NCBI GenBank assembly: GCA_021228405.1 | Contig: JAJQRF010000015.1 | Coordinates: 19,466-83,465 of the forward strand | Direction of reading: 5' to 3' | DNA: 64,000 bases | Source: Pyrinomonadaceae bacterium | Lineage (GTDB): Bacteria; Acidobacteriota; Blastocatellia; Pyrinomonadales; Pyrinomonadaceae | In this document: positions 49,850 to 63,188 of the stretch, piece by piece | How positions within the stretch are numbered: position 1 is the stretch's first letter | Layout: the number at the start of each line of letters is the position of its first letter | Notes under the pieces: generated by a model | Told to the model about the DNA's origin: nothing | Seen by the model: the letters and a program-made list of their open reading frames with translations, nothing else | Databases searched by the model: none | Position numbers and translations under genes: made by a program

Positions 49850-52800
49850 TTAACCGCCGTTCCAATAATTTACCTTTCCGCTCACATCGACGCTTATCAG
49901 GGATTTTCCGTCGGGCGTAAATTTCAGATTGTTTACTTGTTTCTGGCTTGCCGTGAAAGCCAGAACCTGTTCGCCCGTTTCCGTGTTCCAGAGCCGGATC
50001 ACGCCGACATCGCTTGCCGTCGCCAGCCTTTTCCCGTCGGGGGAAAATTCGACCGCGTAAATTCCCGCGCTCATTCCCGTCAGTTCGTGAACGAGTTTTT
50101 TATCGGAAACGCGCCAGATTCGCGCCGTATCGTCCGCGCCCGTCGCGGCGAGAAATTTCCCGTCGGGCGAAAACGCGACTTTGAAAAGCGGTTTCGTATT
50201 ACCGCTGAAAACCGCGATCTCATTTCCCGTTTCCGCATCGAAAAGTTTGACGAGCTTATCGTTTCCGCCGCTTGCGAAAAGCTTGCCGTCGGGCGAAAAC
50301 GCCAGACCTTTAAGAATGTCGGGCGAAGCCTTGACCGACAAAATCTCCGCGCCCGAATCCGTGTTCAGACACTTAATATTCCCGTCTTCACTGCTCAACA
50401 GAATCCTTTCGCCGTCAGACGAAAAATCTATCCCGTAAACATTCCGGTCGAATGCTTTGACGCGCCTGATTTCCGTTCCGTTTTCGGCATTTATCAATGA
50501 ATAATAGCCTTCGCGCTCGCCGAATGCGACGATCTTTTTAGTATCGGAATAGTCGGTCACGAAGCTGTTTATCTTCGATTTGACCGCCCAAATCTTTTCT
50601 TTTTTCGCCAGATTCCACGCCGTAATTTCAAAGGTCGCCGGCGACCAGCCGAAACCTTTTTTATCAGTGATCGACGGCACGAAATTTGAATTATTGGTCA
50701 AAACCGCGTTGCCGCCGAGAAGTTTTCCGGTATCCCAAAAACTCAGATTAAAATCCGCCGAAGCCGTTGCAAGTCTTGTCCAATCGGGCGAAAAAACGAC
50801 TTCGTGAACGCCCGAAAAATGCCCGCGCAGTTCGTTGATGACTTCGCCCGTCGCGACATCGACAAACTTGATCGTGCGGTCGCCGCTTCCCGTCACGAGA
50901 GTTTTTCCGTCAGCCGAAAATGCGAGCGATTTGACGTTTGCCTGATGAATTTTCAAGACCTTCAAAACCTCGAACGTGTCGAGATCGACAAAGATCACGT
51001 CGCCGCTGTAACTGCCGAGCGCGAGCGTTTTTTCGAGCGGTGAAAAAACGATCTTCCAACCGTTTAAGGTCGCATTTTTTTCGTTGTAATAGTTTACGTC
51101 AGCCTGTTTTTTGAGCCACGTTTTCGTATCGTAAACAGCCAGCGTTTCAAACCCCAGAACCGCGAGTTTGTCGCCGTTTTTGGAAAACTGAACGTCGGTC
51201 AGTTCAACGCCCTTTTCGGGAACGGAAAACGAAAAACGTTTTAATTCCGTGCCGTTTCCGGCATCCCAGACGATCAGATTTCCGTCGCCGCTTCCCGTCG
51301 CGATCAATTTCCCGTCGGGCGAAACGTCGATGGCGCGGACGCGTTTCGTGTAGCCTTTGAGCGTCATTATCTCTTTCGCGGTTTCGGTTTCGTAGATGCG
51401 GACGAGCGGCGCGGAACTTGAACTGCTCGAAACGGCAAAGCGTTTTCCGTCAGGAAAAAAAGCGACTTTCCACGCTCCGCGCTGTTCCTGCGACTGTATC
51501 ATCGCGCCCGTTTCGACATTCCAGATGCGCACGAAATTATCGTTGCAAGCGGAAACGATAAATTTTCCGTCGGGCGAAAATTCCGCGCTCCAGACCTCGT
51601 CGGGATGCTGAAAAAAGGCGGTCTTGGTCGGCGGTTCGAGCAGATTTTTCAAAAAATACCATTCAAACCCGCGCAAATCTTCTTCGCCGTCGGCGGGCGC
51701 GTATTTTTCGACAAGTTCTTTCAAACGATTCAGGTTCGCGTGTTCGTATTCGTTTGCGGCAAGGATCATTTCCGCCGAATAAGCGGCACGGCGGTTTTCA
51801 CGCGCCTGAAATTGTTCGTTGCGAAATTGCCACGCAAACGTTATCAGCCATCCGATTATCAAAAACGAAACGAGCAGACCGACCGCCGATTCGATGCGGT
51901 GACGCTGAATGTATTTTTTTAGACGATACACGGAAGTCGCCGGGCGCACCGAGATCGGCAGATTTTCGAGGTAATTTTGAATGTCGTGACTGAAATCCGC
52001 GACCGTTTGATAACGTTCCGAAACGTCTTTGCACAAGGCTTTGAGAACGATTAAATCCAGTTCCGAATTTGAAATTTGCAATCCGGAATCTGAAACGAGC
52101 GAAGGCGCAAGCGGTTCTTTTGTCTGCACGATATTCAAAATCTCATTAAGCGATTTGTTTTTGAAATCGTGCGGACGTTTGCCCGTCAAAAGTTCGTAAA
52201 GAATCACGCCGAGGCTGTAAACATCGGACGCGACCGTGATATTTTCGCCGTTTATCTGTTCGGGCGAAGCGTATTCGAGCGTCAGGGCATTGCCCTCGAA
52301 GGTCTTGTTTTCGGTAAAATTAAAGGCTTCCGCGTCCAGAAGTTTGGCGATGCCGAAATCGAGCAGTTTAACTTTGCCGTTTTTCGTGACGAAAATATTA
52401 TTCGGTTTCAGGTCGCGGTGAACGATCAGATTTTGATGCGCGAACGAAACCGTCTGGCAAACTTCCCCGAAGATTTTCAGTTTTTCGGTTTCGTCGAGCC
52501 TGTTTTCGTTGCAGTAAACGTTGAGCGGAAAACCGTCAACGTATTCCATCACGATGTAAGGTTTATCGCCTTCGGTCGTGCCGCCGTCGAGAATTTGCGC
52601 GATGTTCGGATGTTCGAGCCGTGCGAGAATCTGGCGTTCGCGGCGGAAATTTTCGGCGGATTGTTTGCGGTTTTCAAACGGCGGAACGATTTTGACAGCG
52701 ACTTCCTTTTCAAAATCGTCGATGCGCGAAGCGAGATAAACCGCGCTCATTCCGCCCGCGCCGAGCAACGTTTTCAAACGATACGCGCCGATCTTTTTAC

Positions 52801-53029
52801 CGGCAAATTCGTCCGTTTCGTTTTCGATGAAATGCTTGACGGGCGTAAATTCGCGCTTTTCGATGAAGTCGCCGGATTCATCGAGCGACGCAAGAAGCTG
52901 TAGAACTTCGCGTTTCAAATCCGCATCTTCGCGGCATCGTTCATCGAGAATCCGTTCGCGCTCGACGGTCAAAACTTCGAGAACTTCGTCTAAAATCGAA
53001 TCAATCTGTTTGAAACGCTCTTGGTTCAT
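49850..53029 (-). CDS. Ser/Thr protein kinase with WD40 propellers
   Basis: Membrane-anchored kinase, 1059 residues. Residues 1-75 are an N-terminal helical domain (ILDEVLEVLTVERERILDERC). Kinase domain about 80-350: LLGAGGMSAVYLA, VAVKIV, HRDLKPNN, DFGIAKLL, YASPEQ. One membrane segment near 390 (AVGLLVSFLIIGWLITFAW). The C-terminal 600 residues hold about a dozen WD40 units (FSPDGKFIVSACNDNFVRIWN), probably two propellers, on the outside. It follows the ECF sigma gene with a 94-base gap and is likely co-transcribed; pairs of this kind suggest that the kinase controls the sigma factor. Confidence 0.93.
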   Translation of the reverse strand: MNQERFKQIDSILDEVLEVLTVERERILDERCREDADLKREVLQLLASLDESGDFIEKREFTPVKHFIENETDEFAGKKIGAYRLKTLLGAGGMSAVYLASRIDDFEKEVAVKIVPPFENRKQSAENFRRERQILARLEHPNIAQILDGGTTEGDKPYIVMEYVDGFPLNVYCNENRLDETEKLKIFGEVCQTVSFAHQNLIVHRDLKPNNIFVTKNGKVKLLDFGIAKLLDAEAFNFTENKTFEGNALTLEYASPEQINGENITVASDVYSLGVILYELLTGKRPHDFKNKSLNEILNIVQTKEPLAPSLVSDSGLQISNSELDLIVLKALCKDVSERYQTVADFSHDIQNYLENLPISVRPATSVYRLKKYIQRHRIESAVGLLVSFLIIGWLITFAWQFRNEQFQARENRRAAYSAEMILAANEYEHANLNRLKELVEKYAPADGEEDLRGFEWYFLKNLLEPPTKTAFFQHPDEVWSAEFSPDGKFIVSACNDNFVRIWNVETGAMIQSQEQRGAWKVAFFPDGKRFAVSSSSSSAPLVRIYETETAKEIMTLKGYTKRVRAIDVSPDGKLIATGSGDGNLIVWDAGNGTELKRFSFSVPEKGVELTDVQFSKNGDKLAVLGFETLAVYDTKTWLKKQADVNYYNEKNATLNGWKIVFSPLEKTLALGSYSGDVIFVDLDTFEVLKVLKIHQANVKSLAFSADGKTLVTGSGDRTIKFVDVATGEVINELRGHFSGVHEVVFSPDWTRLATASADFNLSFWDTGKLLGGNAVLTNNSNFVPSITDKKGFGWSPATFEITAWNLAKKEKIWAVKSKINSFVTDYSDTKKIVAFGEREGYYSLINAENGTEIRRVKAFDRNVYGIDFSSDGERILLSSEDGNIKCLNTDSGAEILSVKASPDILKGLAFSPDGKLFASGGNDKLVKLFDAETGNEIAVFSGNTKPLFKVAFSPDGKFLAATGADDTARIWRVSDKKLVHELTGMSAGIYAVEFSPDGKRLATASDVGVIRLWNTETGEQVLAFTASQKQVNNLKFTPDGKSLISVDVSGKVNYWNGG

Positions 53030-53123: not shown

Positions 53124-53708
53124 TTATTCTTCTAAACTGCTGTCCGTTCGGCTTAGTTCACTATAAAGCCACGCTTTGGCTTTGAGCCATTCGCGTTTGA
53201 CGGTGATCTCGGAAACGCCGAGGACTTCCGCCGTTTCGAGCGCGGAAAGTCCGCCGAAGTAGCGTAACTCGACGAGTTTGCTTTTGCGTTCGTCGAATTT
53301 TGCGAGGCGGTTCAAGGCTTCATCGAGCGCGAGAATCTGCGCGTCGGGTTCGGGCGTAAAGAGCGCAACGTCTTCCAGACTTACTTTTTCCGCGCCGTTT
53401 CCGCGTTTCTGATAATTTTTCGTGCGTGCATAATCGACCAGCAAATTTCGCATCACGCGCGAAGCGACCGCGAAAAAATGCGTGCGATCCTGCCAATCGT
53501 TTTCCTTTTGATTGAGCAGTTTCAAATATGCTTCGTTGATGATCTCGGTCGTTTGCAAAGTGTGACCGCCGCGTTCTTTGGCGCGGTAGCGGTGCGCGAT
53601 CTTGCGCAGTTCGCCGTAAACGAGCGGCAGAATCTCGTCCAGAGCGGACGCATTTCCATTGCGCCAATCTTGCAGATATTGGGTGATTTCGGTTGATTCG
53701 ATTGCCAT
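53124..53708 (-). CDS. ECF-type sigma factor (Sigma70_ECF, TIGR02999-like)
   Basis: RNA polymerase sigma factor, 194 residues, of the ECF-like group found with kinases in Acidobacteriota and Planctomycetota. Seen: region 2 ([33 protein letters not shown]), and region 4 ([30 protein letters not shown]). The last part ([12 protein letters not shown]) is typical of this family. No anti-sigma gene is nearby; the kinase downstream is the likely controller. It points away from the exported-protein genes starting at 53851. No copy of the GATAC/TCGCT element lies upstream of this gene itself. Confidence 0.92.
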
Positions 53709-53805: not shown

Positions 53806-53831
53806 GATACCGTTTCCCGAAATTTATCGCT
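53806..53831 (+). promoter_or_regulatory. GATAC-N16-TCGCT element 1
   Basis: GATAC 53806-53810, 16 bases, TCGCT 53827-53831. The second box lies 19 bases before the ATG at 53851, with ggaag between. Interpreted as -35 and -10 parts of an alternative-sigma promoter. Confidence 0.7.
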
Positions 53832-53850
53832 TAACAATCCGGAAGCAATT

Positions 53851-54393
53851 ATGAAATTCAGATTTATTTTATTAAACGCCGCAATTTTGCTGACTTTCTT
53901 TTCGGCAGTCCGCGCCGCCGACATTAAGGATTTGTTCCTGAAAATGCCTTCGGAAATCGTCAAGGACATCGACCGCAACAAGGCAATCGCCGGAGCGAGC
54001 GTGGAAAATTCGCTTTTGAAACTCAATTTTCCGAAGGATTTTTCGGGTGAATTCAAGATTTTAGCGGAGAAAAAAGACGAAACCGTGATCGGTTTCAGCG
54101 TCTATTCGTGCGCGGAAAGCGAGCTTGAAATCTGGTCGGTGAAAAAAGGAAACTGGAAAAACATCACCGGTTCAGCCGCGCCGAAGCTCGGCGCGAAGGA
54201 TGTCGCCGAAATGCTCAAAGTTTCGCCCGCGACGGTTGAAAAATTGGACAAGGACGTTTCTCTTTCCTATTTTTTCACGTTTGCGACAGATGAAAATCAG
54301 ATGAAGCTCGTCATCCGCAAACAGGCGGTCTGCGACATTGCGGGAACGGTTTACGAATACCAATTCAACGGCAGAAAATTTATCAAAAACTAA
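53851..54393 (+). CDS. Exported protein, family A
   Basis: Small Sec-exported protein, about 181 residues, function unknown. Seen: signal peptide MKFRFILLNAAILLTFF with cleavage near VRAA, then DLFLKMPSEIV, the A-family start motif (a Phe/Tyr, x, Leu, then M/I-P) shared with 59340 and 60530. Two cysteines (CAESELE and CDIAG) may form a disulfide. The end YQFNGRKFIKN matches the C-terminal motif found in several proteins of this region. Element 1 is directly upstream and the next gene starts 11 bases after the stop, so it heads an operon. Confidence 0.72.
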   Translation: MKFRFILLNAAILLTFFSAVRAADIKDLFLKMPSEIVKDIDRNKAIAGASVENSLLKLNFPKDFSGEFKILAEKKDETVIGFSVYSCAESELEIWSVKKGNWKNITGSAAPKLGAKDVAEMLKVSPATVEKLDKDVSLSYFFTFATDENQMKLVIRKQAVCDIAGTVYEYQFNGRKFIKN

Positions 54394-54404
54394 CTAAAAA
54401 AATT

Positions 54405-54998
54405 ATGAAAAAACTTATCTTAGCCTTTGCTTTTTCGCTCTCGGTTTTCGGTTTTGCCGACGCGCAAAACGTGACCGACATTCGCAAGATCGATTTTACG
54501 AACTACACGCACAGGATCAGGACAGAAACCATCAAATTCAAGAACGGTTTGCAGGTCGTGTCGTGTGCCAAAGATGCCGAAGGCATTCCGACGGGCGATA
54601 TTTGGAGTCTGCAAAAAGAGTCGATCAAATACGGCGACCTCGACGGCGACGGCAGTCCCGAAGCGATGATGTCGCTCGTTGCAAACATCTGCGACGGAAA
54701 TATGATTACGGACGAAGCCGTGCTGGTTTACAAACTGGTCAAAGGCAAAGCCGTCAAACTTCCGCAATTCGAGTATTTCGATGACGGTTGCGAAACGGGA
54801 AAGGAATGCGGATTTTCGCGCAATCCGGGAGTGACGGTCGCATACGACGCAAAGCAGAAAGCCCTCGTTGTCGATCAGTTTTATATGACCGACGACGACG
54901 CGATCTGCTGTCCTTCCCTGCACCGCGAAACGTGGTATAAATGGGACGGCGTAAGATTTGTCGAAAAAAGAAAATCGGAGATCGTTGCCGTCAAATAA
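54405..54998 (+). CDS. Exported protein, family B, with VCBS/FG-GAP-like core
   Basis: Sec-exported, 197 residues. Seen: signal peptide MKKLILAFAFSLSVFGFA with cleavage near DAQ; a core YGDLDGDGSPEAMMSLVANIC, the Asp/Gly-rich form typical of calcium-binding FG-GAP/VCBS repeats; several Cys (CDGN, DDGCETGKECG, ICCPS) that may form disulfides; and end motif YKWDGVRFVEKR. Related to the N-terminal part of the gene at 63261. Starts 11 bases after the previous gene without its own promoter motif. Confidence 0.72.
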   Translation: MKKLILAFAFSLSVFGFADAQNVTDIRKIDFTNYTHRIRTETIKFKNGLQVVSCAKDAEGIPTGDIWSLQKESIKYGDLDGDGSPEAMMSLVANICDGNMITDEAVLVYKLVKGKAVKLPQFEYFDDGCETGKECGFSRNPGVTVAYDAKQKALVVDQFYMTDDDAICCPSLHRETWYKWDGVRFVEKRKSEIVAVK

Positions 54999-54999
54999 G

Positions 55000-55045
55000 G
55001 GTTTCCGATTTGGGATTCGAGATTTGGGATTCGGGATTGCGGATT
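55000..55045. repeat. gggattc heptamer run
   Basis: Five heptamer words (gatttgg, gattcga, gatttgg, gattcgg, gattgcg) after the family B gene. No complementary arm is seen. Confidence 0.75.
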
Positions 55046-55157
55046 TGTTTATTAAATCTATATTGTCAACGGATTGCACCCATTTTTGGTTACGAAACTC
55101 AGATTAAAAAATGTTACGGGGATATTTTCAGGATGAAACCCGTAACATTTTTACGTT

Positions 55158-55365
55158 TGAGGCGGATTTTATCCATTTTTTTGGATTTTCACGCGTTTGT
55201 GGTGAATTTCATCCGTTTTTCTGGATTTTCATCTTATTGGTGACGATTTCCATCCGTTTTTCCGGATTTTCATCCTGTTGGCGGCGATTTCCATCCGTTT
55301 GCGGCGATTTTCACTTTGCCGGAGTCGGATTTCATCCGTTTGCGGCGAGTTTCGATCTTTCGGCG
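55158..55365. repeat. Degenerate 19-22-bp tandem repeat, about 10 units
   Basis: Units start gattttcatcc/gatttccatccg, spaced 19, 21, 19, 21, 20, 21, 20, 22, 19. Consensus near gatttccatccgtttgcggc. Fills the gap between the family B gene and the next; no gene seen in 54999-55436. Confidence 0.9.
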
Positions 55366-55386
55366 CGAATTATTTTTGTTTTTCGT

Positions 55387-55412
55387 GATACGTTTTTTCA
55401 AAATCTATCGCT
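55387..55412 (+). promoter_or_regulatory. GATAC-N16-TCGCT element 2
   Basis: GATAC 55387-55391, 16 bases, TCGCT 55408-55412. Followed by gaagga and a GTG-started 15-codon frame at 55437; the first larger gene starts 122 bases downstream, at 55535. Confidence 0.65.
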
Positions 55413-55436
55413 TAACTGTTTGAAGGAAACCGACAC

Positions 55437-55484
55437 GTGAAAAAAATCATTGATTTCAGGCTTCGGATGAGAAATTATAAATAA
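55437..55484 (+). CDS. Very short ORF after element 2 (leader or remnant)
   Basis: GTG followed by 14 codons (VKKIIDFRLRMRNYK) and TAA. It has a gaagga site at a good distance and begins like the exported proteins (M/V-K-K), but it does not have a hydrophobic run. It may be a leader peptide, or the remnant of a deleted exported gene. Evidence for translation is only the ribosome binding site. Confidence 0.3.
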   Translation: MKKIIDFRLRMRNYK

Positions 55485-55534
55485 AATACGCCGTGCGAAA
55501 CGGCATCGCGTGATCGATAAAGGAAAGAGTTGAG

Positions 55535-56125
55535 ATGAACATCAAATTATTAAAAATATTAGCTGTCGGAACTTTGTGCCTCGCGTTTTCCGGTTGTAAA
55601 ACGGAAACGGCAAACACAAATTCCAATACGGCGGCAAGCGGAGCGGCTTCAAATATGAATGCAAATGCGAACGTTGCCGTCAATGCGAACACGAACGCCA
55701 ATGCCAACGTCAACGCGAACGCGAAACCGGCGGACACTTCGCCGAAACGCATCGTTTTCAATAAAGGCGCGAACTGGGGCGCGGTCAATATCACGCTCGC
55801 GGCGGGCGCGGCGCAGAAATTCGTGGTCGGCGCGAAAAGCGGTCAGACGATGGATGTTGAAGTTTCGTCGAAAGATACTTCCGTCAATCTCATCAAGGGC
55901 AAAGCGCAGACGACCGAAGATTTCGGCTATCTGAACGCCGAACTGCAAGCCAACGGCGATTACGTTTTTGAAGTAAAAAATTCGACCAAAAAGGAAATCA
56001 AAACTTCCGTCAAAGTCACCATCGAAGGTAAGCAGGGCGAAACGAACGAGATCGACGAAAGCGATGCGACGGTCAACGAAGACGAGGACGTTCCGCCGCC
56101 GCCGTCAAAAGGAAAGGACAACTAA
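55535..56125 (+). CDS. Lipoprotein with Asn/Ala linker, family C domain
   Basis: A 196-residue lipoprotein. Seen: signal MNIKLLKILAVGTLCLAF with lipobox ending SGC, so Cys20 or close is lipidated; an Asn/Ala-rich linker of about 45 residues; then the family C beta domain (RIVFNKGANWGAVNITLAAG, AQKFVVGAKSGQTMDVEV, DYVFEVKNS); an acidic and Pro-rich tail. The C domain is shared with the genes at 57293 and 61137, and at the C terminus of 63261. It may bind ligands or matrix; not known. A family-wide search would help placing it. Confidence 0.78.
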   Translation: MNIKLLKILAVGTLCLAFSGCKTETANTNSNTAASGAASNMNANANVAVNANTNANANVNANAKPADTSPKRIVFNKGANWGAVNITLAAGAAQKFVVGAKSGQTMDVEVSSKDTSVNLIKGKAQTTEDFGYLNAELQANGDYVFEVKNSTKKEIKTSVKVTIEGKQGETNEIDESDATVNEDEDVPPPPSKGKDN

Positions 56126-56144
56126 ATTAACAATATCGGCGATG

Positions 56145-56211
56145 GTTTTGAGTCCCGCCTTGAGGCGGCGATTGCTCAAGCCGAAAGCCTTCTAAAGAAG
56201 CGGCTCAAAAC
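56145..56211. repeat. Palindromic element copy
   Basis: Left gttttgagtcccgcc..ggcggc, right gccttctaaagaagcggctcaaaac. Related to the element at 31311. Lies between two exported-protein genes. Confidence 0.85.
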
Positions 56212-56243
56212 GCATCCGCCGATTTTTGAGAAACATTCTATCT

Positions 56244-56774
56244 ATGAAAAACTTTATTTTAATTGCATTATGCACGATATTCTGCGCATTTTCGGCAAAT
56301 GCGCAGGTTGCGAAAATGTCGAGCGTTTACACGAATCTAAAGGTTGACTGTAAACCCGAATCGAAGGTCGAAGCGGACGAAGTTCCGTTTATCTGCAAAG
56401 CCGTCGGCGGTTTCCGCGTCCGCATCGTTCCCGCCGGAGCGTGGGCGGAAATGATCGAGATCGTCGATGCCCAAAACAAAACCGCCGCGTCTTTGGGCAC
56501 GCACGGCTACGGTTATTCGACCGCGCCGAAAAGAATGGTCGAATGGCGAATGGCAAACGGCAAACCTTTCGCGGTCATTTTCCGCATCAACGAATACGAC
56601 CAGGAAAAGGCTTCAGAAGCGGGCGACAATCCCTACACGGAAAAATATAAAACGGGCGAAAAGCTGATCGTGCGCGGCTTGCCGGGTTACAGCCAGATCG
56701 ATTTCGAGGTTGACGCGAAAGAGAAAAACGCCAACGTCAAAGCGCAGAATCTGGCGGATGAAAATTTTCAATAA
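56244..56774 (+). CDS. Exported protein, family F
   Basis: Sec-exported, about 176 residues from the ATG at 56244 (upstream TTG at 56226 is possible). Seen: signal MKNFILIALCTIFCAFSANAQ; then SSVYTNLKVDCK, VGGFRVRIVPAGA, MVEWRMANGKPFAVIFRINEYDQ, and NVKAQNLADEN at the end. All of these recur in the protein at 61619 (SVYTSLD, VGGYKLEV, AEWRMKGKVPVALIVRFN, NATAQKLADAA). Function unknown. Confidence 0.75.
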   Translation: MKNFILIALCTIFCAFSANAQVAKMSSVYTNLKVDCKPESKVEADEVPFICKAVGGFRVRIVPAGAWAEMIEIVDAQNKTAASLGTHGYGYSTAPKRMVEWRMANGKPFAVIFRINEYDQEKASEAGDNPYTEKYKTGEKLIVRGLPGYSQIDFEVDAKEKNANVKAQNLADENFQ

Positions 56775-56792
56775 AAATGTTCAAAATCCCGC

Positions 56793-56873
56793 GTTTTGAG
56801 TCCCTTCTTGAGAAGGCTTTCCGTTTAGCGAACAGCCGCCTGAAGGCGGGACTCAGAGCACTGGACTCTGAAC
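56793..56873. repeat. Palindromic element copy, extended
   Basis: gttttgagtcccttcttgag..aagg, loop with cgtttagcga, gccgcctgaaggcgggactc, and a second partial right end ggactctgaac. It ends 13 bases before the next start codon. Confidence 0.85.
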
Positions 56874-56886
56874 GTAATTCAACTTT

Positions 56887-57285
56887 ATGAAAAAAATCTT
56901 TATATTGTTCACACTTTTGCTTGCGGTCGCTTTCTTATCGAATAATGCTTTTGCGCAGAAAAAACAGCGCATCGGTTTGGCGGAAGGTGCGGATTCCGTG
57001 CAGGTAAAGGGAAAAATTTCGGGGAAACAATACGCTTTATACGAAATCTGGGTCGAAAAAGGCGATGTTTGGGAAGTCAAACTTAATTCGACCAACAATT
57101 TCATCGGCTACACGGTCAAAGGCGCGAACGGCGACCGTTACGACTTTCTCGAAGCCGCGCCCGCGTCGGGCTATTATACGATTCGCGTCGAACTGAATTC
57201 GGCGGGCGCGAAATCGAAAAAGATCGCCGATTTTACGCTCGATATTAAATTTGAAATGGAGAAAAATGCTCCCGTAAGCGAGTAA
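56887..57285 (+). CDS. Exported protein, family C-like
   Basis: Sec-exported, 132 residues. Seen: signal peptide MKKIFILFTLLLAVAFLSNN and cleavage near AFAQ; a beta domain with QRIGLAEGADSVQVKGKISGKQ and YEIWVEKGDVWEVKL, similar in order to the 61137 protein (RVQFAKGATSATVKGTITG, YKIGIRAGQVLSLEL). A PPC-like fold is possible. It is followed by another family C gene with a 7-base gap. Confidence 0.72.
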   Translation: MKKIFILFTLLLAVAFLSNNAFAQKKQRIGLAEGADSVQVKGKISGKQYALYEIWVEKGDVWEVKLNSTNNFIGYTVKGANGDRYDFLEAAPASGYYTIRVELNSAGAKSKKIADFTLDIKFEMEKNAPVSE

Positions 57286-57292
57286 TTATTTT

Positions 57293-57739
57293 ATGAAAAA
57301 TATGAATAAACTTTTTATCTTTTTAGTGTTGGCGGCGGCGTTCGTCTTTGCCGGACAAGCGAACGCGCAAACCAGGATCGTTTTTGCCAAAGGCGCGTCG
57401 TCGAAAACTCTGACCGTCACCGTTCCCGCCAACGGCGAGAAATCTTTTTCGGTGCAGGTCAAAGAAGGTCAGGTCATCAACATCGGCGTTTCGGGCGACA
57501 TCAACGTTTCAAAAACGACCGAATTCCCCGTTATTTCCGTCAATCTAACGAACGGCGAAGAAGGCGTTGACAACTCGCAGGACGGCGAAGGCTATCTTTC
57601 GATCCTGGCTGGCAGATCGGGAAATTACGTTTTCAGCGTTGCCAATTCCGACAAAAAACGCGCCCGAACCTTTAAAATGGAAGTCAAAGTGACCAACGAC
57701 CGCGCCGATTTTGCGGGCGGCGAAGAAGTCGAACAATAA
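57293..57739 (+). CDS. Exported protein, family C
   Basis: Sec-exported, 148 residues. Seen: signal MKNMNKLFIFLVLAAAFVFA with cleavage near ANAQ; RIVFAKGASSKTLTVTVPAN, FSVQVKEGQVINIGV, and GNYVFSVANSDKKRARTFKMEV. The order of strands agrees with the 55535 and 61137 proteins. An acidic C terminus (GGEEVEQ). Probably co-transcribed with the previous gene. Confidence 0.75.
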   Translation: MKNMNKLFIFLVLAAAFVFAGQANAQTRIVFAKGASSKTLTVTVPANGEKSFSVQVKEGQVINIGVSGDINVSKTTEFPVISVNLTNGEEGVDNSQDGEGYLSILAGRSGNYVFSVANSDKKRARTFKMEVKVTNDRADFAGGEEVEQ

Positions 57740-57766
57740 AACTATCCTTCAAATTTCGTAACTTAA

Positions 57767-57796
57767 AAACGTCGAAATATTCCGGCGTTTTTTTTT
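57767..57796 (+). terminator. Terminator after the family C pair
   Basis: Stem aaacgtcg 57767-57774 with cggcgttt 57783-57790 (one G-T pair), 8-base loop, long T-run. Confidence 0.8.
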
Positions 57797-57800
57797 GTTT

Positions 57801-57826
57801 GATACGAAATATCGAATTCTATCGCT
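57801..57826 (+). promoter_or_regulatory. GATAC-N16-TCGCT element 3
   Basis: GATAC 57801-57805, 16 bases, TCGCT 57822-57826. Immediately after the terminator; the ATG is at 57872, 45 bases downstream. Confidence 0.7.
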
Positions 57827-57871
57827 GAGGTTAGTGAAAACAGTTATATAAACACAGAAAAAGAGAGAATT

Positions 57872-58573
57872 ATGAAACAACTAACATTTTTAATTTTGGC
57901 GGCGGCATTTTTATTTTTGAGCGGATTGCAAACGGTAAAGGCTCAGGGAATTTTGAACAGGATCAAGAAAAAAACTGAGGAAGTTACGAAACAGACACCG
58001 CCGAATCAAACGACAGCAAGCACAGGCATCGGCTCGAACGAGAAGATCGATGTCAAGGAAGTTTTCCGCCAAGCCGCGCCGCTTTTGCAGATCACGGCTT
58101 CGGAAAATGTTGACAGAGTTATCTCGCAAACCTTCGCGGGCGAAAATCGAATCGCGTTCAAAGTTCCGGCAAATTTAGGAATTTCGACCGAAGGCACGAT
58201 GCGCTACAACGGCGAAGCGAAAGTTTTCCCGACGAAAACCGGCGGCGGTTTGGCGGCGATCACTTATTCGGGCTGCACCGTCGATAATATGTGCGACAAC
58301 CAATTTCAATTAATTCAGATCGAAAACGGCAACGCGCAACTCGTAACGGGTTTGCATTTTGCGAGTTATTACACTTCAAACGATATGATAATCGCGCTTC
58401 TGAAGGCAAATAAGAATTACAAAAAGCCGGTCGGTGCTTTATACAAAGCGAACATCAATTTCAACAACAACAAATTAAATATGGTCGTCGATTGCCCCGA
58501 CGGTCTTTGTCAGGATGCTTTCATTGTTCGTTCTTTTTCGTTTGACGGCGAAAAATTTGTCGAAACGAAATAA
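57872..58573 (+). CDS. Exported protein, family D
   Basis: Sec-exported, 233 residues. Seen: signal peptide MKQLTFLILAAAFLFLSGL with cleavage near VKAQ; a Thr/Pro/Asn linker (TKQTPPNQTTAS), then a mature domain with YSGCTVDNMCDNQF and MVVDCPDGLCQDAF (four Cys), and the end motif SFSFDGEKFVETK, common to families A and B. Two pairs of Cys suggest disulfides. Function is unknown. Confidence 0.72.
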   Translation: MKQLTFLILAAAFLFLSGLQTVKAQGILNRIKKKTEEVTKQTPPNQTTASTGIGSNEKIDVKEVFRQAAPLLQITASENVDRVISQTFAGENRIAFKVPANLGISTEGTMRYNGEAKVFPTKTGGGLAAITYSGCTVDNMCDNQFQLIQIENGNAQLVTGLHFASYYTSNDMIIALLKANKNYKKPVGALYKANINFNNNKLNMVVDCPDGLCQDAFIVRSFSFDGEKFVETK

Positions 58574-58634
58574 ATTCAATATTAAAGATCAAAGATTAAA
58601 AAGCGTCGGGAATGACGGCGTTTTTTTTTATTTT

Positions 58635-58660
58635 GATACGAAAATTTAAATTCTATCGCT
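58635..58660 (+). promoter_or_regulatory. GATAC-N16-TCGCT element 4
   Basis: GATAC 58635-58639, 16 bases, TCGCT 58656-58660. The ATG is 21 bases downstream (58682), with gaggaaa between. A weak hairpin with a long T-run (about 58601-58629) before it probably ends the previous unit. Confidence 0.75.
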
Positions 58661-58681
58661 TAACTGTTCGAGGAAATTTTT

Positions 58682-59266
58682 ATGAAGAAAAATACAATTT
58701 TGGCGATCTTGTTTACGGTTTTTCTGGCACTCGATATTTCGGCGCAAAAGCTGACGACGGAGCAGAAGATGACACCGTTTGCGGTCGGGATGTCGTTGTC
58801 GGTTCTGGGCGAAATGCACGACGAAAATTATCAAGCCGCGCTTTCCGAATATCAAAAAAATATTTCGTATTATTCGGCTGAACTGAAACCCGTCATCGGA
58901 CTTGCGAAAGATTCCGCCGATTACAAAAGAATGGACGTTGCGCAAACGGCGACCAAAGCTCTGCGCGATAAATCGAGCAAATCGGACAAATGGCAAATGC
59001 TCGTCGGCGAACGCTTCGGCACGATCTATGTTCAATTTAAGAAAAACAAAACCGACGATGTCGAGATCGATGCCGGCGATTTGAAATTTTCGCTTGAAAT
59101 GATCGGCATCTTAGCCGGAAATGCGCCCGCCGATATTCCCGAAGATATTGTCGAAGAATTTCGCGAACTCGGCGTAATGAAAGATTTGAAAGATATTGCT
59201 TCGGAAGAAAACGTTCAAAAAATCACGCAGAAAGTTCTCGGGATTCTGAGCAAGATTTCAAATTAA
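58682..59266 (+). CDS. Exported helical protein, family G
   Basis: Sec-exported, 194 residues. Seen: signal peptide MKKNTILAILFTVFLALDIS with cleavage near AQ; the mature part is helical (GEMHDENYQAALSEYQKN, YYSAELKPVIGLAKD, MKDLKDIASEENVQKI), with no cysteine. No family is recognised. The only member of its type in the window. Confidence 0.7.
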   Translation: MKKNTILAILFTVFLALDISAQKLTTEQKMTPFAVGMSLSVLGEMHDENYQAALSEYQKNISYYSAELKPVIGLAKDSADYKRMDVAQTATKALRDKSSKSDKWQMLVGERFGTIYVQFKKNKTDDVEIDAGDLKFSLEMIGILAGNAPADIPEDIVEEFRELGVMKDLKDIASEENVQKITQKVLGILSKISN

Positions 59267-59268
59267 AA

Positions 59269-59294
59269 GATACCGAATCTTAAATTTTATCGCT
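59269..59294 (+). promoter_or_regulatory. GATAC-N16-TCGCT element 5
   Basis: GATAC 59269-59273, 16 bases, TCGCT 59290-59294. Starts three bases after the stop of the family G gene; the ATG is at 59340. Confidence 0.7.
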
Positions 59295-59339
59295 GTATTG
59301 ATTGGAACGAGTTTTATTAAAAAAATTGAAAGGAAACAT

Positions 59340-59963
59340 ATGAAGAAACTTTTATTCTTAACTTTTTGCGCGCTTATTTTGAACGTCGCGTCGTTTGCTC
59401 AAAAAAAGGAAATGTCCGTTAAAGATTACTTTCTGGCGATCCCGACCGAATTCATCAAAGCCGAATCGAAAAAACGCGCGGCTTGGATCGAAAGCGAAAA
59501 CGCCGAAGACGGCAATCTGACATATAACATCCCGATTTCCGAATTGACCGACGAAGAAGGCGACGGCAAGGTTTTCGGCGGACTCCAGGTTTTCAAAAAG
59601 AAGGACGGCGGCGTATTGCTGGGAATGGTCAACAATCTTTGCGCCGACGGCGAATGTATCGGGATGATGAGATTTCTGGACTACAAAGCGGGCAACTTTA
59701 CCGACGTGTCGGACGATTATCTGATAATTCCCGACAACGACGAAGTTATCAAAATCCTGCGTTCCGCACCCGCTTTTGAAGATAAAAAATCATTAAAGGA
59801 CGGCGTGCAGGTTCCGCTGGCGATCGAATTTTACGGCGGTGAAAAATCGGTTCATTTTTTGGCGGGTTGCAAAACTTCGACCGACGGCGGCGTGGTTGCC
59901 AAGATGTATAAATGGAACGGCGAAGCCTTTATCGAGTTTGAATACGAGGAAAGCCCTGAATAA
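59340..59963 (+). CDS. Exported protein, family A
   Basis: Sec-exported, 207 residues. The start at 59340 (aaagga before) fits the signal peptide MKKLLFLTFCALILNVA with cleavage near SFAQ. Seen: KDYFLAIPTEFIKAE, the family A start motif; GLQVFKKKDGGVLLGMVNNLCADGEC; and YKWNGEAFIEFEYEE at the end. Pairs of Cys (LCADGEC; GC at AGCKTS) may form disulfides. Similar to 53851 and 60530. Confidence 0.75.
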   Translation: MKKLLFLTFCALILNVASFAQKKEMSVKDYFLAIPTEFIKAESKKRAAWIESENAEDGNLTYNIPISELTDEEGDGKVFGGLQVFKKKDGGVLLGMVNNLCADGECIGMMRFLDYKAGNFTDVSDDYLIIPDNDEVIKILRSAPAFEDKKSLKDGVQVPLAIEFYGGEKSVHFLAGCKTSTDGGVVAKMYKWNGEAFIEFEYEESPE

Positions 59964-59981
59964 TTTTTTGGAGAAATAACA

Positions 59982-60305
59982 ATGAAAAAAATAGCGACTT
60001 TTATAATTTTTACGATCATTTTCGCCAATCTAACGGCGTTTGCGGCGAATCCGACCGTTTCGTTCGAGCCGAACATCAATTCAAACGCACGTGCGAGCTT
60101 CAAGATTTTGAACGACACGGACACTGACGTGCAGATTCACACGGGTGCGGGCTTTGTCGAACTGAACAAAGGCGCATCGACGAGCGTCACCTGCGAAGCC
60201 GGACGCGAAATCCGCCACGCCAACAAAGGCAAAAAAGGCGACGTAATTTTCACCGTTGACGATTCGATGTGCGGGAAAACCGTCAAACTCTCGAAATATT
60301 TATAA
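59982..60305 (+). CDS. Small exported protein, family E
   Basis: Sec-exported, 107 residues. Seen: signal peptide MKKIATFIIFTIIFANLTA with cleavage near AFAA; then a beta-rich domain (SFKILNDTDTDVQIHTGAGF, TSVTCEAGREIRHANKG) with two Cys. No similar protein elsewhere in the window. Starts 18 bases after the previous stop, with ggag before it, and is likely co-transcribed. Confidence 0.72.
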   Translation: MKKIATFIIFTIIFANLTAFAANPTVSFEPNINSNARASFKILNDTDTDVQIHTGAGFVELNKGASTSVTCEAGREIRHANKGKKGDVIFTVDDSMCGKTVKLSKYL

Positions 60306-60325
60306 ATCGAATCTTTTTGCTAAAA

Positions 60326-60362
60326 CAAAAGTCCGCGTTCATTAATTGGACGCGGGCTTTTG
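60326..60362 (+). terminator. Terminator after family E gene
   Basis: Stem caaaagtccgcgttc 60326-60340 with ggacgcgggcttttg 60348-60362, two imperfect pairs, 7-base loop. Confidence 0.85.
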
Positions 60363-60370
60363 TTATAACC

Positions 60371-60436
60371 GCTCAGAGTTTCGCCTTCAGGCGGCTGATC
60401 GTTTAGCGAAAGCATTCTAAAGAAGGGACTCTGAAC
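60371..60436. repeat. Palindromic element copy
   Basis: gctcagagtttcgccttcag..ggcggc, cgtttagcgaaagc, attctaaagaagggactctg. Related to the element at 31311. Confidence 0.85.
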
Positions 60437-60480
60437 GCTCGCTAATTAGTTATGAGATAAATTTTATTTATTCCGAAACT

Positions 60481-60506
60481 GATACGGAATTTTCAAAAAT
60501 ATCGCT
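60481..60506 (+). promoter_or_regulatory. GATAC-N16-TCGCT element 6
   Basis: GATAC 60481-60485, 16 bases, TCGCT 60502-60506. The ATG is 23 bases downstream (60530), with gaggag between. Confidence 0.75.
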
Positions 60507-60529
60507 TACTGATTTGAGGAGAAACTTTT

Positions 60530-61132
60530 ATGAAACAACTATTTATTGCGTTCGCGTTTTTACTTTTCGCATTTTCGGTCAATTCGTTTGCCCAACAGCC
60601 GAAAACCGTCACGGATTTTTATCTGGCAATGCCGTCCGACGTTTATTCCACCAACAACGAAGGAAACAAGGTTACAAACAAAGCCGCGCTCACCAAGCTC
60701 CGCAAATCCTTCATAAAAACCGAAGACATCAAAAACGGTTACTTGAAACTCGAAGGCGCGTGGGAAGGCTGGGCGGAAATCGCGCTTTTCAAGAAAAAGG
60801 ACGGAAGCTACCTGATCGCCCAAGCCGAAACGGGTTGCGGTCCGGCTTGCGACGGTTTTGTTAAATTTTTCACCTACAGAGCCGGAAAATGGACGGATGT
60901 TACGAAACAGGTTTTCCCGAATCTGTCCGAAGCGCAGGTCAAACAGGCTTTTGTCGGCAAAAATGTTAATCTCGAAGACGAAGGAATGAGCTATTATTTC
61001 CTGCTTCCGCAAGTAGGAACGACCGTCAAAATGGCTTGCAATATGTGCGAAAACGGCGAAACGAGCGAAAGCGAGGATTTGGTTTTGATGGAATTTACGT
61101 GGAACGGCGAAAAATTCGGCATCAAGAAATAA
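60530..61132 (+). CDS. Exported protein, family A
   Basis: Sec-exported, 200 residues. Seen: signal peptide MKQLFIAFAFLLFAFSVNSF with cleavage near AQQ; TDFYLAMPSDVY, the family A start motif; ALFKKKDGSYLIAQAETGCG; a Cys pair in MACNMCENGE; end FTWNGEKFGIKK. Related to 53851 and 59340. Followed by a family C gene four bases after the stop. Confidence 0.76.
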   Translation: MKQLFIAFAFLLFAFSVNSFAQQPKTVTDFYLAMPSDVYSTNNEGNKVTNKAALTKLRKSFIKTEDIKNGYLKLEGAWEGWAEIALFKKKDGSYLIAQAETGCGPACDGFVKFFTYRAGKWTDVTKQVFPNLSEAQVKQAFVGKNVNLEDEGMSYYFLLPQVGTTVKMACNMCENGETSESEDLVLMEFTWNGEKFGIKK

Positions 61133-61136
61133 GTTT

Positions 61137-61541
61137 ATGAAACAGATTTTAGCGATCGGTTTTTTATTTTTCGGAATCGGGTCGGCGGCAAATTTTGAAG
61201 CCAAAGCGCAAACCGTCAAACGTGTGCAGTTTGCCAAAGGCGCGACTTCGGCGACCGTCAAAGGCACGATCACGGGTTATAGATATATCGATTACAAGAT
61301 CGGAATCCGCGCCGGACAAGTTCTCTCGCTCGAACTCACCCCGCAAAACAAAGCCGAACTGGTAATTTTTATGCCCGACGGCGAAAATATGCCCGACGCG
61401 GCGGGAATTAGCGGCGGAACGATGCAGATCGACGAATCGGGCGATTATAAAATCCGCGTTCTGATGCCGCGCTCGACGGCGCGAAGAAAAAGCGCGGCGG
61501 CAAACTTTTCCTTAAAAATCGAAATCAAAGACTTGCAGTAA
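61137..61541 (+). CDS. Exported protein, family C
   Basis: Sec-exported, 134 residues. Seen: signal peptide MKQILAIGFLFFGIGSAA with cleavage near KAQ; RVQFAKGATSATVKGTITG, YKIGIRAGQVLSLELTPQN, VIFMPDGENMPDAAG, GDYKIRVLMPRS. Resembles 57293 and the others of family C. It is coupled with the previous gene. Confidence 0.75.
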   Translation: MKQILAIGFLFFGIGSAANFEAKAQTVKRVQFAKGATSATVKGTITGYRYIDYKIGIRAGQVLSLELTPQNKAELVIFMPDGENMPDAAGISGGTMQIDESGDYKIRVLMPRSTARRKSAAANFSLKIEIKDLQ

Positions 61542-61618
61542 TGCTGTTGGTTTTATTAAATAATTAATTGCGATCTCTCAACTTCAATGTCTTAATTTAT
61601 ATTATTTCTGAGGAAAAT

Positions 61619-62137
61619 ATGACAAAAAAATTAATCATTTCAAGCTGTTTTATTCTGGCTTTTGCGGTTTTTGCTGCGGCACAAAACAAAAGTGTTTATA
61701 CGAGCCTCGATACGAAAGGCTGTAAAACCATCGAACAATCCGACGAAGGCGCGGGTTGGTATCGCGGCGAATGTCCCGGTGTCGGCGGCTACAAGCTCGA
61801 AGTCACCGAAGGCGATATTCGTCAATCAATCAACGTCGTCGCTCCCGGCGGAGAAATTTTTGAACTTAATTTCGCACAGGTTTCGTCGGCGTTTTCGACC
61901 GTCGGGGCAAAAGCCGAATGGCGTATGAAAGGCAAGGTTCCCGTTGCTTTGATCGTTCGTTTTAACGCATCCGACCCCGAAGACACGACCAGATCGACTT
62001 CTTATTTGGTCGTTTCAAAAATCTCGAAAACGGAATCGTGCATCACGGATGTCGTCAACCCGAGCAAAACCCAAAACGCCACTGCCCAAAAATTGGCGGA
62101 CGCGGCGGCAACCAAACCCTGCAAATCGTTTGAATAA
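61619..62137 (+). CDS. Exported protein, family F
   Basis: Sec-exported, 172 residues from the ATG at 61619 (gagga before). Seen: signal MTKKLIISSCFILAFAVFAA with cleavage near AAQ; NKSVYTSLDTKGCK, VGGYKLEVTEGDI, AEWRMKGKVPVALIVRFN, and NATAQKLADAAATK. Related to 56244. Contains several Cys (GCKTI, GECPG, SCITD, PCKSF). A gap of 77 bases separates it from the family C gene; no GATAC element lies there, so it may be read from element 6. Confidence 0.76.
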   Translation: MTKKLIISSCFILAFAVFAAAQNKSVYTSLDTKGCKTIEQSDEGAGWYRGECPGVGGYKLEVTEGDIRQSINVVAPGGEIFELNFAQVSSAFSTVGAKAEWRMKGKVPVALIVRFNASDPEDTTRSTSYLVVSKISKTESCITDVVNPSKTQNATAQKLADAAATKPCKSFE

Positions 62138-62156
62138 ATATTTTTTCGCTGATCTA

Positions 62157-62187
62157 AAAAAAGCGTTCGGGTGAGAACGCTTTTTTT
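62157..62187 (+). terminator. Terminator after family F gene
   Basis: Stem aaaaaagcgttc with gaacgctttttt, gggtga loop, T-run to 62187. Confidence 0.9.
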
Positions 62188-62197
62188 ATTTTCGGGT

Positions 62198-62223
62198 GAT
62201 ACGAATTTGATTTTTTTATCGCT
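62198..62223 (+). promoter_or_regulatory. GATAC-N16-TCGCT element 7
   Basis: GATAC 62198-62202, 16 bases, TCGCT 62219-62223. The next gene, TerC, starts 194 bases downstream; no exported gene follows closely. It may drive terC or be an orphan left by a deletion. Confidence 0.6.
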
Positions 62224-62417: not shown

Positions 62418-63188
62418 ATGGAATGGTTAGCTGATCCTTCTGTCTGGATAGCATTTGCAACTTTAACGGTTTTAGAACTCGTTCTCGGAATTGACAACGT
62501 AATTTTTATCTCGATCCTTGCCGGAAAACTGCCTGCCGAACAGCAATCGAAGGCGCGGTTTATCGGGCTCACGATGGCTTTGCTGTTTCGCGTGGTTCTG
62601 CTTTTTTCGCTTTCGTGGGTGATGGGTTTGACCGCGCCGCTTTTTACGCTTCCGGTCGTCAATCAAGCCGTTTCGGGGCGCGATCTGATCCTGATAATCG
62701 GCGGATTGTTTCTAATTGCGAAATCGACGCACGAAATTCACGGTTCGCTCGAAGGCGAAGAAGGTCACGCGTCAAAGAAGGTTTACGCTTCGTTTACGAG
62801 CGTTATCATTCAGATTTCCCTGCTCGACATCGTTTTCTCGCTCGATTCGGTCATCACGGCGATCGGAATGGTTGACCGCGTGGCAATTATGATCGCGGCT
62901 GTCATCGTGTCGATTATTGCGATGATGCTGTTTGCAGGCTCGATCGGCGCATTCGTCCAGAAGCATCCGACCGTGAAAATGCTTGCGCTTGCTTTTTTAC
63001 TGCTGATCGGCGTAACGCTTTTGGCGGAAGGTTTTCACCAGAAAATCCCGAAAGGCTACATTTATTTTGCGATGGCGTTTTCGGTCATCGTCGAACTTTT
63101 GAATATGCGTCTGCGTAGAAAAGCCGAGCCGGTTCATCTGCATAATGCGTATACCGACGAGGACGAAGCAAAAGCGGTTCAGGCTTAA
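62418..63188 (+). CDS. TerC family integral membrane protein
   Basis: Membrane protein of 256 residues with about seven membrane segments, of the TerC/YoaE-YkoY-like group, several of which export manganese or act on metal loading of exported enzymes. Seen: LELVLGIDNVIFISI and LDIVFSLDSVITAIGM, the two conserved TerC motifs with acidic residues in the membrane. Ribosome binding site tgggag. No yybP-ykoY-type manganese RNA was found upstream. It interrupts the run of exported-protein genes. Confidence 0.92.
   Translation: MEWLADPSVWIAFATLTVLELVLGIDNVIFISILAGKLPAEQQSKARFIGLTMALLFRVVLLFSLSWVMGLTAPLFTLPVVNQAVSGRDLILIIGGLFLIAKSTHEIHGSLEGEEGHASKKVYASFTSVIIQISLLDIVFSLDSVITAIGMVDRVAIMIAAVIVSIIAMMLFAGSIGAFVQKHPTVKMLALAFLLLIGVTLLAEGFHQKIPKGYIYFAMAFSVIVELLNMRLRRKAEPVHLHNAYTDEDEAKAVQA

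Follow-up and report, generated by a model that had tools for sequence, protein, structure and literature searches.

Seven GATAC-N16-TCGCT elements as candidate promoters of an exported-protein cluster beside a kinase-linked ECF sigma factor in a Pyrinomonadaceae bacterium

We analyzed 64,000 nucleotides of DNA from a Pyrinomonadaceae bacterium (contig JAJQRF010000015.1, positions 19,466 to 83,465; hereafter, the window), in which seven copies of the element GATAC-N16-TCGCT lie among genes for exported proteins. The results point, with a probability of about 0.9, to the elements being promoters that would be read by the extracytoplasmic function (ECF) sigma factor encoded divergently at 53124-53708, which would be activated by a kinase and would drive a battery of exported proteins. 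Computation established the motif, its spacing, its tie to one sigma factor clade and to particular gene families, and the agreement of the −35 triplet with the recognition helix of the sigma factor.

Seven elements with one spacing

As listed below, the seven copies occur on the + strand with exact boxes and exactly 16 bases between them, as a preliminary description of the window had reported. Elements 3 and 4 each lie 8-9 bases past a terminator-like hairpin, and a further hairpin of this kind was seen in the sequence before element 7.

53806-53831, +, predicted promoter element 1; 19 bases before ATG 53851, pointing away from the sigma gene
55387-55412, +, predicted promoter element 2; 122 bases before ATG 55535
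57765-57792, +, intrinsic-terminator-like hairpin just before element 3
57801-57826, +, predicted promoter element 3; 45 bases before ATG 57872
58598-58626, +, intrinsic-terminator-like hairpin just before element 4
58635-58660, +, predicted promoter element 4; 21 bases before ATG 58682
59269-59294, +, predicted promoter element 5; 45 bases before ATG 59340
60481-60506, +, predicted promoter element 6; 23 bases before ATG 60530
62198-62223, +, predicted promoter element 7; immediately behind a terminator-like hairpin, nearest gene start 194 bases on

The three short distances (19, 21, and 23 bases) agree with the range of 19-23 bases given earlier. The window contained no exact copy besides these seven, again as described before, and no GATAC/TCGCT pair at spacings of 10-15 or 17-23 bases was found on either strand. 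Pattern matching over the whole genome (5.72 Mb) gave nine further exact matches, compared with four for a reversed-pattern control. The flank-only profile score was +14 to +23 for the seven elements, each left out of training, and −8 to −45 for the nine others. Thus, by the control and by the flank scores, the nine other matches are background. From the genome-wide rate, 0.0066 copies were expected in 8.4 kb, where seven were seen (P ~1e-19).

The preliminary description was right about the two boxes and their spacing, but the element is in fact longer, since a flanking T, T, A, and TGA are also conserved. The consensus of 19 copies, taken from the window and the six ortholog loci described below, reads T, GATAC, Ga, TT near positions 8-9, AA near positions 14-15, T[A/C]TCGCT, [T/G]A, and T-G-A about nine bases past TCGCT. 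As observed, T precedes GATAC, an invariant T stands two bases before TCGCT, and A is the second base after it. All 19 copies have a spacing of 16 and the same orientation as the following gene. The full 39-base form was found only at the seven sites and nowhere else in the host genome. The conserved TG lies nine to ten bases past TCGCT, giving a pyrimidine-purine (YR) step at the expected start position. With transcription starting at the conserved G of this TG, GATAC would have its first G exactly at −35, and the register would be G−35, A−34, T−33, A−32, and C−31. The element shows the features of an ECF-type promoter, namely two boxes ~16 bases apart, G−35, C−31, a CG in the −10 box, and an orientation pointing into the gene. 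Separately, a degenerate tandem array of the TTTTCATCCGTTTTTCTGGAT type, with a period of ~20/41, occupies 55154-55359, immediately 5′ of element 2.

The adjacent sigma factor, its relatives, and the −35 triplet

Beside the array, two genes on the − strand encode the proposed regulators.

53124-53708, −, ECF sigma factor, TIGR02999 / PF07638 (ECF43-like; TIGR02999 E=1.7e-65); divergent from element 1, proposed reader of the seven promoters
49850-53029, −, Ser/Thr protein kinase (Pkinase 83-342, E=8.7e-50) with a WD40 propeller at the C-terminus; proposed to activate the sigma factor

The preliminary description had suggested a −35/−10-like promoter for one alternative sigma factor, which it left unnamed. 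This suggestion gained support because the motif tracks the ortholog clade of the ECF protein at 53124-53708 (7/7 loci), and this divergent gene would encode the factor in question. The protein scored 220 bits with TIGR02999 (cut-off 126), has only weak relatives among solved structures, and carries SEITVKREW in its region 4.2 recognition helix. In region 2.2, QTT is invariant in the seven orthologs and is followed by Glu (QTTE), whereas most other family members have QTTA. The adjoining kinase contains HRDLKPNN and DFG motifs and one hydrophobic segment, and a homologous kinase was found beside 6/6 orthologs.

The sigma protein was searched in 119 genomes of the host's family. Six orthologs showed 65-83% identity, and the next best matches dropped to 57% and less; the ortholog loci are metagenome-assembled genomes of Acidobacteriota (Pyrinomonadaceae/Blastocatellia). 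Each of the six contained one to five perfect GATAC-N16-TCGCT elements at spacing 16 only, the first lying between genes and pointing away from the sigma gene. In contrast, the six next-best sigma loci were without a perfect element. A tree of 52 sigma proteins placed the seven with the element in one clade (support 100/98). No perfect motif was found within 400 bp of the sigma gene in the other loci compared, L128 having a one-mismatch form. A class-level search recovered sigma factors of 59-64% identity from other families, mostly without the element; near forms were CCGCT in L131 and GCGCT in L128. In L131 (genome G057, 1796, − strand), the sigma factor of 59% identity has TGATAC-N16-CCGCT nearby, in front of a gene encoding an exported WD40 protein.

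The genes behind the elements are homologous across species, and in 5/6 orthologs the element next to the sigma gene is followed first by a member of a group related to PliG, an inhibitor of g-type lysozyme. In L070 and L071, a single run of ~five to seven genes follows one element; in the window, these families are distributed among several units, and every unit has an element of its own. Unlinked copies were observed in two of the ortholog genomes, G105 (two, contig C8) and G116 (contig C115), preceding homologs of 56887-57285, 59340-59963, and 58682-59266. The position before exported proteins, noted earlier for the window, thus holds in the orthologs and at the unlinked copies. Past the 39 bases, the seven copies are barely more alike than shuffled sequence (0.28-0.30 vs. 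0.26-0.28). From this and from the unlinked copies before homologs of window proteins, the distribution of the element appears to be one of regulon logic and not of local duplication. Nearby identity by descent alone was also rejected, on the grounds of differing spacers and flanks and of the unlinked copies. In genome G023 (L069, 10465-13708), the exported-protein cluster has a second ECF sigma and kinase pair at its distal end, the sigma factor of this pair being 47% identical to the first.

Related frames were found beside other sigma factors of the family. A clade-wise scan gave TGAACA-N16-TCGCT, often in tandem, beside the sister clade, and TGAGCC, TGATCA, and TGAGGG forms beside other clades. 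In 60 held-out loci, the predicted spacing of TGA-N19-TCGCT gave nine occurrences and any other spacing no more than two; read in the opposite direction, the predicted spacing gave none. The form TGAnnn-N16-nCGC[T/G] (TGA-N20-CGC[T/G]) was located divergently upstream in 43/113 loci, compared with a mean of 5.4 for other spacings and 5.1 for the opposite direction; the nCGC[T/G] form was picked after inspecting these loci, which are mostly best matches to the window sigma protein and so are not a random sample. The same spacing was again the commonest in 29 further phylum-wide loci (9 vs. a mean of 1.6). Sigma factors with the helix SxMTVRRD were found with TGAACA-N16-TCGCT in L049, L051, L053, L056, L057, L059, L175, L183, and L207, and several SxMTVRRD loci contain this element as two tandem copies 41-90 bases apart.

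Across 41 labelled loci, sigma residues were compared with promoter bases. Association with the −35 triplet (−33 to −31) was strongest for column 168 and second strongest for column 171, both in the recognition helix, followed by 142, 167, 176, and 173. Ile/Leu168 occurred with TAC in 12/14 loci, and TAC was never seen without Ile/Leu168; Met168 occurred with ACA (9/9), and Ala/Val168 mostly with Gnn (16/18). For base −31, column 171 ranked top, Lys going with C (22/24) and Arg with A or G (13/13). When one protein per 70% cluster was used, the pairs Ile/Leu168-TAC (P=0.0002) and Lys171-C−31 (P=0.02) persisted. By the TxK motif, residue 171 corresponds in the alignment to K170 of SigW, which contacts G′−31, the base paired with −31 (PMC6713349), and the top rank of column 171 for base −31 fits the prediction from that contact. 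In the phylum-wide set, TGAGCC was the form at all three loci that had both an SxATVK protein and a match (L209, L222, and L232), as expected; L217, which combines an SVPT helix with TAC, was an exception to the rule. SEIT and SPIT/SPLT helices also go with TAC in other branches (L181, L154, L206, and L063).

The agreement between −35 triplet and helix supports the view that the adjacent sigma factors would read the elements. We consider it probable that kinase-linked TIGR02999 sigma factors of Acidobacteriota share the frame TGAnnn-N16-nCGC[T/G], in which residues 168 and 171 would be the main determinants of the address given by the triplet at −33 to −31. Many paralogs would thus address their own local gene sets, that of the window factor being a lysozyme-inhibitor-like exported battery.

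Proposed mechanism and alternatives

From these results, we infer the start sites, the phosphorylation, the signal, and the envelope-protection role as follows. GATAC would serve as the −35 box and T[A/C]TCGCT would hold the −10 box, with transcripts starting at or beside the conserved TG, nine to ten bases past TCGCT. The membrane kinase would sense something outside the cytoplasm via its WD40 propeller and phosphorylate the QTTE stretch of region 2.2 at Thr54 (or Thr53), after which the sigma factor could bind RNA polymerase. The active holoenzyme would then transcribe the exported proteins, including relatives of PliG-family lysozyme inhibitors, in parallel from seven promoter copies.

Several observations weigh against this proposal. 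The nearest open reading frames (ORFs) start as far as 122 and 194 bases after elements 2 and 7. The acidic residue E55 is retained in region 2.2, which leaves room for activation that is in part independent of phosphorylation. No element faces the sigma gene itself at its locus, and autoregulation through such a promoter was therefore not seen. Most other sigma loci had no recognisable element within 300 bp, indicating that some loci lack the frame or have it in forms that the pattern used does not cover. As for the residues, column 142, outside the helix, scores slightly higher and ranks first with one protein per 70% cluster, and the sigma sequences are related, so that column statistics overstate independence.

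Short conserved boxes 5′ of co-regulated genes would look alike if they were operators of a DNA-binding regulator, and the −35 and −10 roles are assigned from the sequence. We regard this reading as improbable, because the element is non-palindromic, every copy points downstream with a constant 16-base spacing, the YR step is conserved at the expected start, and the −35 triplet tracks the recognition helix family-wide. Equally improbable is that the promoters are real and served by another sigma factor. The host genome contains 13 TIGR02999 sigma factors above cut-off, and the specificity of the window factor is predicted by sequence comparison. However, the motif adjoins only this sigma gene and its orthologs, the SEIT and SPIT/SPLT helices pair with TAC in other branches too, and one paralog (C19 locus) sits by other triplets, TGACAC/TGAAAC-N16-GCGCG.

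Concerning these paralogs, an open two-box scan beside the other twelve found no local array above noise. A targeted pattern detected two TGAnAC-N16-GCGCGTTAGA elements, TGACAC and TGAAAC, in L080 at 7865 (−) and 9443 (−), at paralog locus C19:291611 of the same genome; these are likely a small promoter set of that paralog.

The least credible alternative, which we consider very improbable, is a small repeat spread by duplication and lacking a promoter role. The preliminary description had considered that some copies probably spread by duplication, and several genes behind the elements are indeed paralogs of each other; element pairs also share up to 75% of the spacer. For the elements, however, such spread was unsupported: similarity past the second box is kept between species, and the sequence beyond it is close to shuffled. 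Furthermore, the boxes are exact among species with 65-83% identical sigma factors while the spacers differ, the copies precede particular gene families, and the full form is without other genomic copies. Promoters read by the divergent ECF sigma factor remain the preferred explanation.

The exported-protein cluster and related systems

Downstream of element 1, thirteen small ORFs with signal-peptide-like starts are followed by a TerC-like gene.

53851-54393, +, exported protein, family B; behind element 1
54405-54998, +, exported protein, family G; second gene of unit 1
55535-56125, +, lipoprotein-like, related to the PliG-family protein 57293-57739; behind element 2
56244-56774, +, exported protein, family E
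56887-57285, +, exported PliG-family protein (fold of g-type lysozyme inhibitor)
57293-57739, +, exported PliG-family protein
57872-58573, +, exported protein, distant family B; behind element 3
58682-59266, +, exported protein, family C; behind element 4, G116 homolog with unlinked element copy
59340-59963, +, exported protein, family B; behind element 5, G105 homolog with unlinked element copy
59982-60305, +, small exported protein, family D
60530-61132, +, exported protein, family B2 (weak DUF3256); behind element 6, fold like PG_1388 (2p3p)
61137-61541, +, exported PliG-family protein; best direct match to solved PliG
61619-62137, +, exported protein, family E
62418-63188, +, TerC/YkoY-like membrane protein; possible target of element 7

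The protein 61137-61541 matched solved PliG (4dzg) by phmmer with E=2.4e-11. A profile of twelve cluster proteins matched PliG at 8e-11, whereas 56887-57285 alone reached only 0.008. The AlphaFold model of 56887-57285 (pLDDT 80) had 4dzg as its best PDB match (TM 0.68/0.79), and the best six matches were all PliG structures. PliG proteins are specific inhibitors of g-type lysozyme in Gram-negative bacteria (PMC3458809). With these matches, and with the PliG group behind ortholog elements, a reasonable guess is that the regulon may serve in defence against muramidases. Family B comprises 53851-54393, 59340-59963, and 60530-61132 (model pLDDT 90 for the last), and its fold search gave a sole match, the uncharacterised Porphyromonas gingivalis PG_1388 (2p3p). 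Some cluster proteins also had weak library matches (XAC2610 family, E=0.016; PepSY_2; GOLD domain), which were set aside. Three near-exact copies of a dispersed intergenic repeat, similar to repetitive extragenic palindromic sequences, lie between cluster genes at 56190-56206, 56798-56814, and 60415-60431; its core, TTCTAAAGAAGnGnCTC, stands inside inverted-repeat-rich stretches.

Kinase-regulated ECF43 sigma factors, as described in PMC8999054 and PMC13147305, lack the acidic residues of region 2.2 and are activated by phosphorylation of a Thr in QTTA/STTA. Like EcfP-PknT of Vibrio parahaemolyticus and EcfK-PknS of Xanthomonas citri described there, the window pair consists of an ECF sigma factor beside a Hanks-type kinase, and the targets of those factors include envelope or defence functions. 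Those factors have TT in place of the acidic DAED residues; the window factor has the TT pair too, but keeps one acidic residue after it. In contrast to them, the window factor has QTTE instead of QTTA/STTA, its kinase carries WD40 repeats, and its predicted regulon consists of small exported proteins with a defined promoter array beside the sigma gene. No promoter motif for ECF43 was found in the available text of these two papers, and no defined promoter for kinase-linked TIGR02999 sigma factors in the literature searched.

SigW/SigE-type −35 boxes are GAAAC / GGAAC (PMC6713349), and classical ECF boxes contain AAC and CGT (PMC8103513). GATAC differs by one base from the GAAAC of SigW, whose contacts are solved (PMC6713349). 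The window element resembles the SigW/SigE type in its register of G−35, purine−34, and C−31, its CG-containing −10, its ECF-like spacing, and a helix Lys with C−31. It differs in T−33, with a clade-specific −33 to −31 triplet elsewhere in the family, in its TCGCT −10 box, and in that no autoregulation of the sigma gene was seen. The cluster proteins share sequence and predicted fold with PliG (4dzg, 4dy3, and 4dy5), together with a signal peptide or lipoprotein leader; unlike in known PliG, several paralogs occur in one acidobacterial regulon, and inhibitor function is a prediction.

The kind of system is known, whereas its specificity, array layout, regulon content, and family-wide address rule are new so far as the literature searched shows. 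ECF promoters have mostly been found through autoregulation, and a review described ECF target prediction as limited by its dependence on known pairs and autoregulated ECFs (PMC8103513). A clade-tied motif, with a residue-to-base rule that partly holds in loci outside its training, would make regulons predictable and testable for the kinase-linked TIGR02999 sigma factors, which are numerous in Acidobacteriota. The regulon also provides a functional hypothesis, namely cell-wall defence against muramidases, which may parallel the predator-resistance role of EcfK in Xanthomonas.

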